NCBI GenBank assembly: GCA_002687745.1
Contig: NZBE01000011.1
Location: 87,352-151,351 of the forward strand
DNA: 64,000 nucleotides
Source: Acidimicrobiaceae bacterium
GTDB lineage: Bacteria; Actinomycetota; Acidimicrobiia; Acidimicrobiales; MedAcidi-G1
Direction: 5' to 3'
The translations under genes and the position numbers were made by a program. Below, in pieces: positions 44,240-46,649 of the stretch (position 1 is the first letter of the stretch; each line of letters starts with the position of its first letter). The notes beneath the pieces were generated by a model. It did no database searches. It had not been told where the DNA came from and saw nothing but the letters and a program-made list of their open reading frames with translations.

Positions 44240-45154
44240 TCAGCCGGCTGTCCGCTCCACCAGGTTGGTAATGGAGTCGAGGATCTGCGGCCAGGCTCCC
44301 TCGGGCCACTCGTGGCCCATGCCGTCGATGAGGACCAGCTCTGCACCCGGCACGGCGTCGGCGGTGCGCCTACCGCACTTCGGCAGGATGAGCCGGTCGT
44401 CGGTCCCGTGGATCACGGTCGTGGGCACTCTCAGGCTGGCAAGTGCAGGTCCGCGGTCGCCGTCGGCCATGATCGCCGCCATCTGACGGTTGGTCCCCAC
44501 CGGGTGCCACGCCCTGTCAGCGGCGGTGGTGGCCACCTCCAGCAGGAGGTCCTCGTCGAGGTCGAAACCGTTTCCGGCGATCAGGCGGAACGTCTCCATC
44601 CCGACCCCGATCCGCCCCTCCCTGGAATCAGGATTCTGTTCCATCCTCATCAATTTCATCGTGAGGCCGACCGAACCGACCGGCTGCCCGGGGCTGGACA
44701 TGATGGAGCAGAGGGAGAGAACCCGGTCAGGGTGCTCGGTTGCCAGGCGCTGGGAGATCATGCCCCCCATCGAGACACCCACGACGTGGGCCGCCTCGAT
44801 ACCGAGGGCATCGAGCACCCCGGCGGCGTCGTCGGCCATGTCGGAGAGTGTGTAGGCGACCTTCGGCCTGATGCCGAACTTGGAGCGCAGCCAGACAGTC
44901 GCCATGTTCGGATCAGGCTCCTCGTCGAACCAGGTGGAAAGGCCGACATCGCGGTTGTCGAACCGGATCACGTGAAAGCCACGTGCCGCCAACTGGTTGA
45001 CGAGGCCATCCGTCCAGTGGATCAACTGGAAGCCGAGGCCCATGATGAGGAGCACCGCGGGATCGGCCGGATCTCCGGTGGTTTCGACCTCGATGCCTAT
45101 TCCGTTGGACTCAACCTGTGGCATCGGTTCTGTTTCGGTGGGTGCGGTCGACAC
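44240..45154 (-). CDS. alpha/beta hydrolase
   Basis: AVLLIMGLGFQLIHWTDGLVNQLAARGFHVIRFDNRDVGLS, HVVGVSMGGMISQRLATEHPDRVLSLCSIMSS. Start may be an internal ATG (PQVESNGIGIE) because of the overlap with lnt. Confidence 0.9.
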   Translation of the reverse strand: MSTAPTETEPMPQVESNGIGIEVETTGDPADPAVLLIMGLGFQLIHWTDGLVNQLAARGFHVIRFDNRDVGLSTWFDEEPDPNMATVWLRSKFGIRPKVAYTLSDMADDAAGVLDALGIEAAHVVGVSMGGMISQRLATEHPDRVLSLCSIMSSPGQPVGSVGLTMKLMRMEQNPDSREGRIGVGMETFRLIAGNGFDLDEDLLLEVATTAADRAWHPVGTNRQMAAIMADGDRGPALASLRVPTTVIHGTDDRLILPKCGRRTADAVPGAELVLIDGMGHEWPEGAWPQILDSITNLVERTAG

Positions 45155-46649
45155 CGGGAGTCTGCCAGAGGGCGGCGCAGTGGGCTGCTGCCACCAGCAG
45201 CACCGACAGAATCAGCATCGGAACCGGACCGAGCCTCGTGGCCCACGTGAGGCCCTCCCGGAGTTCGACAGTTCCCTGAAGTACCGCCTGTTCGCCCACG
45301 CCGGTGCGCTCAACGAGGCTCCCGTCGGCATCGATGATGGCGCTGAAGCCCGTAGGAGCGGCCTGGACCATCCAGCGGCCGGTCTCGAGCGCCCGTAGGC
45401 GGCTTGAGGCGACCTGCTGGGTCTGGACCTGGGTCAGCCAGTAGCTGGCCCCGTTGGTCGGGTTCAACATGACCTGTGCCCCGTCGAGCACGGGGTCACG
45501 GGTGCGATGGTCGAAGAAGACCTCCCATGAGATGGTCACGCCGAGGCGCCCTGCCGATGTGTCGAGCACCGCGTCGCCGGTTCCGGGAAGGAGATCACGC
45601 GCCGGCAGGATGTCGCCGGCGATGGGATCCAGCATCCACCGGAGCGGTACGAACTCACCGAAGGGGACGGTACGAACCTTGTCGTAGCGGTCCACGACGG
45701 TGCCATCGGGTTCAATGGCGGTGGAGTAGTTGACGTTGGCCCTCGGGTCGCTGGGTGAACGGTGGAACCATCCCGGGACCAGCACCGCACCGAGCCTCTG
45801 AGCCTCGGCTGTGAGCGCCAGGTCGGCATCGTCGGGGTAGAGCCTGTCCGCACGGCGGTTGCCCGAAGAGGGAAGGGGCGCCGGGTTGACGACGTTCTCG
45901 GGCCAGAGGACCACGTCGACGGGGCCCTCCACGAGCCGGGATGCGGCCATCTGGTTGGCGAACACGATTGCCGCACCGGTCGGCGAAGCCCTGGTTCGCT
46001 GCGGACCGCCGCCCTGCACCGCAGCCAGATCCAGGCTGTCGACCACGTGGCCGGTCGGGGCCACGGCTGCAAGGACAGCGGCCAGGAGTACGACCCCGCC
46101 ACCGGCCACCGCATCTCGGAGGGACCGGCGGTCGCCCCTCCACACGTCGACGAGGGCACTCAGCGACATTCCCACAGCCACCACAACGGCAACCAGAAGG
46201 AGCGACCCTGCGACGCGAACGACCGGTGCCAGCGGACCGGCTGCCTGGCCCATCGGGATGGTTGCAAGCGGAACGCCCCCGAAGGGCACGCTCCAGCGGG
46301 CGAACTCGGCCACGGTGAACGAGCCGACGAGGCCCAGTCTGCGCCAGCGCTCCGAGGGGACGACACAGGCCGCCAGGCCGAAGAAGGTGGCGTGGAGAAG
46401 CCCGGCGAACACCCACCCGGGTGGTGTCAGGTCGAGCATCCAGAGGGTTGCGGGAAGGCTCCACGCTGCGGTGGCAGGCACCGTACGGCGGAACCGGACG
46501 ATGGCCGGCTGCCCTGCGAGGAGTTGATCCAGAAGGGCGATGCCGACGAACGCCGTGGGCCACCAACCCCACGGTGGAACTGCCGCAGCAATGAGCAGGC
46601 CGGCGCCGACTGCGGTCAGCCCTGTGCGCAGAGACGGAGGTCCAGGCAT
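45111..46649 (-). CDS. lnt: apolipoprotein N-acyltransferase-like protein with Ser at the catalytic Cys position
   Basis: Multi-TM N-terminus; nitrilase domain with VVLWPENVVNP, VDRYDKVRTVPFGEFVPLR, VTISWEVFFDHRTRD, LNPTNGASYWLTQVQTQQVASSRLRALETGRWMVQAAPTGFSAII. Confidence 0.85.
   Translation of the reverse strand: MPGPPSLRTGLTAVGAGLLIAAAVPPWGWWPTAFVGIALLDQLLAGQPAIVRFRRTVPATAAWSLPATLWMLDLTPPGWVFAGLLHATFFGLAACVVPSERWRRLGLVGSFTVAEFARWSVPFGGVPLATIPMGQAAGPLAPVVRVAGSLLLVAVVVAVGMSLSALVDVWRGDRRSLRDAVAGGGVVLLAAVLAAVAPTGHVVDSLDLAAVQGGGPQRTRASPTGAAIVFANQMAASRLVEGPVDVVLWPENVVNPAPLPSSGNRRADRLYPDDADLALTAEAQRLGAVLVPGWFHRSPSDPRANVNYSTAIEPDGTVVDRYDKVRTVPFGEFVPLRWMLDPIAGDILPARDLLPGTGDAVLDTSAGRLGVTISWEVFFDHRTRDPVLDGAQVMLNPTNGASYWLTQVQTQQVASSRLRALETGRWMVQAAPTGFSAIIDADGSLVERTGVGEQAVLQGTVELREGLTWATRLGPVPMLILSVLLVAAAHCAALWQTPGVDRTHRNRTDATG

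Follow-up and report, generated by a model that had tools for sequence, protein, structure and literature searches.

A natural serine-for-cysteine replacement in apolipoprotein N-acyltransferase homologues of Acidimicrobiia

Enzymes of the nitrilase superfamily are described as thiol enzymes with a Glu-Lys-Cys triad. In apolipoprotein N-acyltransferase (Lnt) the cysteine of this triad, Cys387, is described as essential, as is Tyr388 in the E. coli enzyme. The structure of E. coli Lnt places His425 next to Cys387 (PMC5500888). When Cys387 is mutated to serine (C387S; PDB 5VRH, 8B0M), E. coli Lnt forms an oxygen-ester acyl-enzyme from which transfer was undetectable in one assay (PMC6828757), and the Ser mutant has been described as a low-activity enzyme (PMC10313180). 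The experimentally proven mycobacterial Lnt is of the Cys type (MSMEG_3860, the N-terminal domain of Rv2051c, and BCG_2070c) and is followed downstream by a Ppm1-like gene (PMC3850990). M. bovis BCG has a second Lnt homologue, BCG_2279c (Rv2262c-Rv2261c), which carries Ser in place of Cys387. With four lipoproteins it failed to take over the role of the Cys-type Lnt, and the authors deem it unlikely to be an N-acylating Lnt (PMC3850990). This failure of BCG_2279c to replace BCG_2070c is the only experiment on a natural Ser-type Lnt that we found in the literature. Glu-Lys-Ser triads, mostly with an aromatic residue after the Ser, also arose several times within the nitrilase superfamily in cephalopod symplectin/vanin-like proteins (PMC5541922). 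They have the same triad as the protein described below; unlike it, they are animal, pantetheinase-like proteins and not Lnts, and no function is given there for the Ser forms. PMC3850990 and PMC5541922 were the only reports that we found on a natural Ser-type Lnt or on a replaced nitrilase Cys.

An Lnt homologue with serine at the Cys387 position

The window analysed here is a stretch of 64,000 nucleotides from an Acidimicrobiaceae bacterium. On its minus strand, an intact open reading frame with an ATG start (45111-46649) encodes an lnt homologue of 512 residues. The protein scores 173.4 bits against the TIGR00546 lnt model, above the equivalog cut-off of 132.9, and contains the LNT_N membrane domain (PF20154, 38.4 bits; residues 16-160, positions 46170-46604) followed by the CN_hydrolase (nitrilase) domain (PF00795, 80.6 bits; residues 234-464, positions 45258-45950). 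An alpha/beta hydrolase gene on the same strand (44240-45154) begins with a GTG codon inside the last part of lnt, the two genes sharing 44 bases; the closest relatives (L008-L011) are the only ones in which it adjoins lnt.

A sequence-only reading of the window had noted ISWE in place of the ICYE motif of E. coli Lnt, with the surrounding catalytic residues intact. Both observations were borne out by alignment with the E. coli protein. The minus-strand codons ATC TCA TGG GAG encode Ile373-Ser374-Trp375-Glu376. Ser374, the proposed nucleophile, is encoded by TCA at 45528-45530, as had been read, and aligns with Cys387, while Trp375 (45525-45527) aligns with Tyr388 and Glu376 (45522-45524) with Glu389. 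Upstream in the protein, the triad base Glu251 (45897-45899) corresponds to Glu267, the triad lysine Lys324 (45678-45680) to Lys335 and Glu332 (45654-45656) to Glu343. The equivalents of Glu267, Lys335, Glu343 and Glu389, and also those of Pro346, Gly145 and Gly447, are invariant in all Ser clades identified below. With Cys387 replaced, the window protein is, by its sequence, a Ser-type (Glu-Lys-Ser) variant within the Lnt family and not a canonical Lnt.

The AF2 model of the protein, computed with 25 aligned sequences as input, has a pLDDT of 83.8 and a pTM of 0.85. A Foldseek search of the PDB with this model returned Lnt chains at ranks 1 to 24 (query-normalised TM of about 0.73-0.80), showing that the protein has the Lnt fold; the next match was a soluble carbamoylase. 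The active-site loop is modelled with low confidence (residues 375-379 below 50), and the placement of Ser374 consequently rests on the sequence alignment.

The Lnts of E. coli and P. aeruginosa (TIGR00546) thus resemble the window protein in their two domains, the Glu and Lys of the triad, Glu343, Glu389 and the fold. The window protein differs from them by Ser for Cys387, Trp for Tyr388, Gln for His425 and Leu for Trp148. The Trp had been considered part of the oddity together with the Ser. This part did not stand: CWE occurs in Cys-type Lnts of the sister group of the window's clade (clade A), and the position is occupied by Trp, Tyr or Phe in clade A itself and by Phe, Tyr or Trp in Cys-type Lnts. 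Conversely, two Cys-type Lnts (L247 and L252, families f71 and f57) have Ser at the Tyr388 position (ICSE). Trp237 of E. coli Lnt is also missing from the window protein, but this is no clade-specific loss, as it is missing in sampled actinobacterial Lnts generally.

The position of the active-site His425 is occupied in the window protein by Gln412 (45414-45416). Clade A has Gln or Glu there, clade B has Leu or Phe, a second-copy Lnt (L199) has Leu and clade C has His; most other Cys types have His, and the Cys types of clade A's sister group have Gln. Since this sister group shares the Gln, the change from His425 to Gln probably preceded the Ser swap in the clade A lineage. Loss of His425 as a simple adaptation to Ser is unsupported, given the Gln of the Cys-type sister group and the His kept by clade C. 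In the lid of clade A, Trp148 (L1) is replaced by Leu or Ile, whereas clades B, C and D keep it. Arg382 is nearly invariant in clade A and specific to it.

Fixation and recurrence of the serine

The motif [IV]SWEVFF was found in 35/35 relatives from named contigs, all from Acidimicrobiia and 46-95% identical to the window protein. As one of the six search peptides used in this first survey included the Ser, the survey was redone with a profile on 296 sampled genomes of the class. All 77 best-scoring clade-profile loci, one per genome, nearly all from the same order and including the window's own, carry Ser with Trp, Tyr or Phe as the next residue, and the Ser is invariant in 49 clade A representatives. 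All six Ser codons are in use at the site, AGY occurring in 13 of the 112 clade A sequences counted. The use of both TCN and AGY indicates that Ser itself is under selection and that what is conserved is the residue and not a DNA motif. A sequencing error or decay is ruled out by this fixation with every Ser codon in use; the initial argument against simple decay thus held, for the frame is intact and the Ser fixed across the clade. A displaced Cys acting as a substitute for Cys387 is also rejected, since no Cys is conserved throughout the clade A alignment and, in the sequence alignment, none takes the place of Cys387. One Ser-type lnt (L032:5001-6470) is broken into two open frames by a frameshift, a stop or an assembly error.

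What had been noticed in a single gene proved to be much wider, extending across the order as sampled and into three more clades of the phylum. For the phylum survey, we searched with the TIGR00546 model and then inspected about 110 additional loci. Ser stood at the position of Cys387 in three groups: the ISFEGAF-type Lnts from further families of the class (f26, f29, f31, f34, f37, f40, f42, f45 and f46); family f56, which lies elsewhere in the phylum (13/13 members sampled); and two second-copy Lnts of family f78 (L199 and L200).

The sister group of clade A includes Cys-type Lnts encoded directly upstream of a Ppm1-like gene. Because of this adjacent gene, as in the proven mycobacterial system (PMC3850990), we assigned these sequences to the mycobacterial Lnt family. 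Mycobacterial Cys-type Lnt resembles the window protein in having Gln at the His425 position and, in part, Trp at the Tyr388 position, but has kept the catalytic Cys. Family f78 genomes likewise encode a Cys-type Lnt (TCWE) with a Ppm1-like gene after it, the arrangement reported from M. smegmatis. We infer that their second copies L199 and L200 are of the BCG_2279c type. BCG_2279c has Ser at the Cys387 position like the window protein; however, it accompanies a Cys-type Lnt as a second copy and belongs to a different clade, whereas the window protein is the sole Lnt of its genome. Indeed, L199 falls in a separate starred clade together with Cys-type paralogues, and the window protein is not grouped there.

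We counted the changes between Cys and Ser on an 83-sequence tree that has E. coli Lnt as its root and was built with the Cys387/Tyr388 and His425 columns removed. Five state changes were needed (bootstrap 5-95% range 5-5), and five were also obtained from a 139-sequence tree. The simplest reading is probably four changes from Cys to Ser and one from Ser to Cys. Placing all Ser sequences in one clade was rejected (p-AU 4e-52), which rules out a single origin. Forcing the two largest Ser clades together gave a borderline result (p-AU 0.0502), so that three origins is the cautious count. The change back to Cys concerns L066 and L071 (genomes G062 and G038, family f40), which are Cys-type Lnts (SVICFEAAF, codon TGC) nested inside a Ser clade, while L163 from another f40 genome carries Ser. 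From their sequences, these two genes represent an apparent natural reversal. A further contrast was seen within one genus (f36 g80), where L101 (G028:C8:30618-32012) is a window-type ISWE Lnt scoring 569 bits and L055 (G076) a Cys-type ICFE Lnt; it may reflect a gene replacement or a binning error.

Genome context and lipoprotein pathway

We searched the window's genome, which is 89% complete, for a second lnt, Cys-type included, and none scored over the TIGR00546 cut-off; the other CN_hydrolase loci touched by the model scored 22-46 bits. In the phylum sample, genomes of the same order that have any lnt match have one, and none of the genomes sampled from clades A, B and C was found to have a Cys-type partner Lnt. 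The upstream steps of the pathway are represented in the window's genome by lgt (G000:C30:9855-10577) and lspA (G000:C31:56144-56545). Clear lipoprotein signal peptides were few in the part of the genome scanned (L268:8229-9122 and L272:18742-19608). A full Lnt is absent from several nearly complete genomes of the same order, in f3 and f5 (genus g14), of which the members tested retain lgt and lspA. This shows that Lnt is dispensable in this lineage, with a possible lineage-specific loss of N-acylation.

The gene order hemE-hemG-lnt-(D-Tyr-tRNA deacylase)-glycosyltransferase is conserved, which indicates vertical inheritance of lnt. As a functional clue the neighbourhood was set aside: the heme and tRNA-editing genes and the glycosyltransferase are conserved but say little about the substrate.

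Proposed mechanism and alternative explanations

We consider it likely that the window protein is an active apolipoprotein N-acyltransferase that uses Ser374, not Cys, as its nucleophile. Glu251 would act as the general base and Lys324 would stabilise the oxyanion, while Ser374 would be acylated to give an oxyester acyl-enzyme instead of a thioester. E. coli Lnt C387S has a Glu-Lys-Ser site like that of the window protein, but is a laboratory mutant of a Cys-adapted enzyme. The activity of the Ser mutant in this unadapted background indicates that Ser is able to carry out the first step, and its oxyester and low activity suggest that a Ser-adapted enzyme could run the same ping-pong reaction through the oxyester, presumably with a lipoprotein as acceptor. 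Among the three options put forward by the sequence-only reading, namely a Ser-nucleophile Lnt, an altered reaction and a non-catalytic homologue, the first appears to fit best. Fixation, recurrence and apparent reversal of the Ser, the invariant Glu, Lys and Glu around it, and the status of sole Lnt are best explained by an active Ser-type Lnt. Several points count against activity as an Lnt: the failure of transfer by C387S in one assay, the case of BCG_2279c, the divergence of Trp148 and His425 in clade A, the low confidence of loop residues 375-379 and the few clear lipoprotein signal peptides.

Oxyesters react less readily with amines than thioesters do. The Ser could thus be an active nucleophile in a changed reaction, in which the acyl group would be passed to another acceptor, such as a glycolipid or sugar hydroxyl, or to water. 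The lid and pocket shifts specific to clade A (loss of Trp148, Gln or Glu for His425, the near-invariant Arg382) and the glycosyltransferase gene near most clade A loci are in line with such a change. However, the same swap took place on the Trp148-keeping backgrounds of clades B, C and D, the remaining neighbours of lnt are heme and tRNA-editing genes in a synteny weakly informative on substrate, and the window protein passes the equivalog cut-off as the only Lnt to do so in a genome that retains lgt and lspA. We regard a changed reaction as unlikely. Loss of catalysis altogether, leaving a pseudoenzyme or a helper comparable to the contributive role proposed for mycobacterial BCG_2279c, would agree with the essential Cys387 of E. 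coli Lnt and with the inability of BCG_2279c to substitute for the main Lnt. We find this still less probable: a helper would have no Cys-type partner to assist in the genomes sampled from clades A, B and C, the replacement recurs and apparently reverts in one case, and Glu, Lys and Ser of the triad are invariant across very divergent sequences, which would be unneeded without catalysis. It seems highly improbable that the true nucleophile is some other Cys or a nearby Ser or Thr. The low confidence of the active-site loop leaves the geometry taken from the model coarse, but the clade alignment contains no invariant Cys and Ser374 aligns ungapped with Cys387 in a conserved strand-to-elbow motif.

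Beyond the window protein, we are inclined to see in these sequences an active Glu-Lys-Ser class of Lnt that would have arisen about four times in Actinomycetota and reverted once, an oxyester replacing the thioester. As part of the same reading, and with similar reserve, the nucleophile of this membrane enzyme of the nitrilase superfamily would be exchangeable in nature. As the Ser-type Lnts are mostly the sole Lnt of their genome, they make the role of the thiol testable by comparison of natural Ser and Cys enzymes, for which close relatives on both sides of the apparent reversal could be used. They also call for care in annotation, as the curated lnt model accepts Ser-type proteins despite the missing catalytic Cys. 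Finally, the replacement bears on which actinobacteria make triacylated lipoproteins, and thiol-directed Lnt inhibitors should fail on the Ser types.
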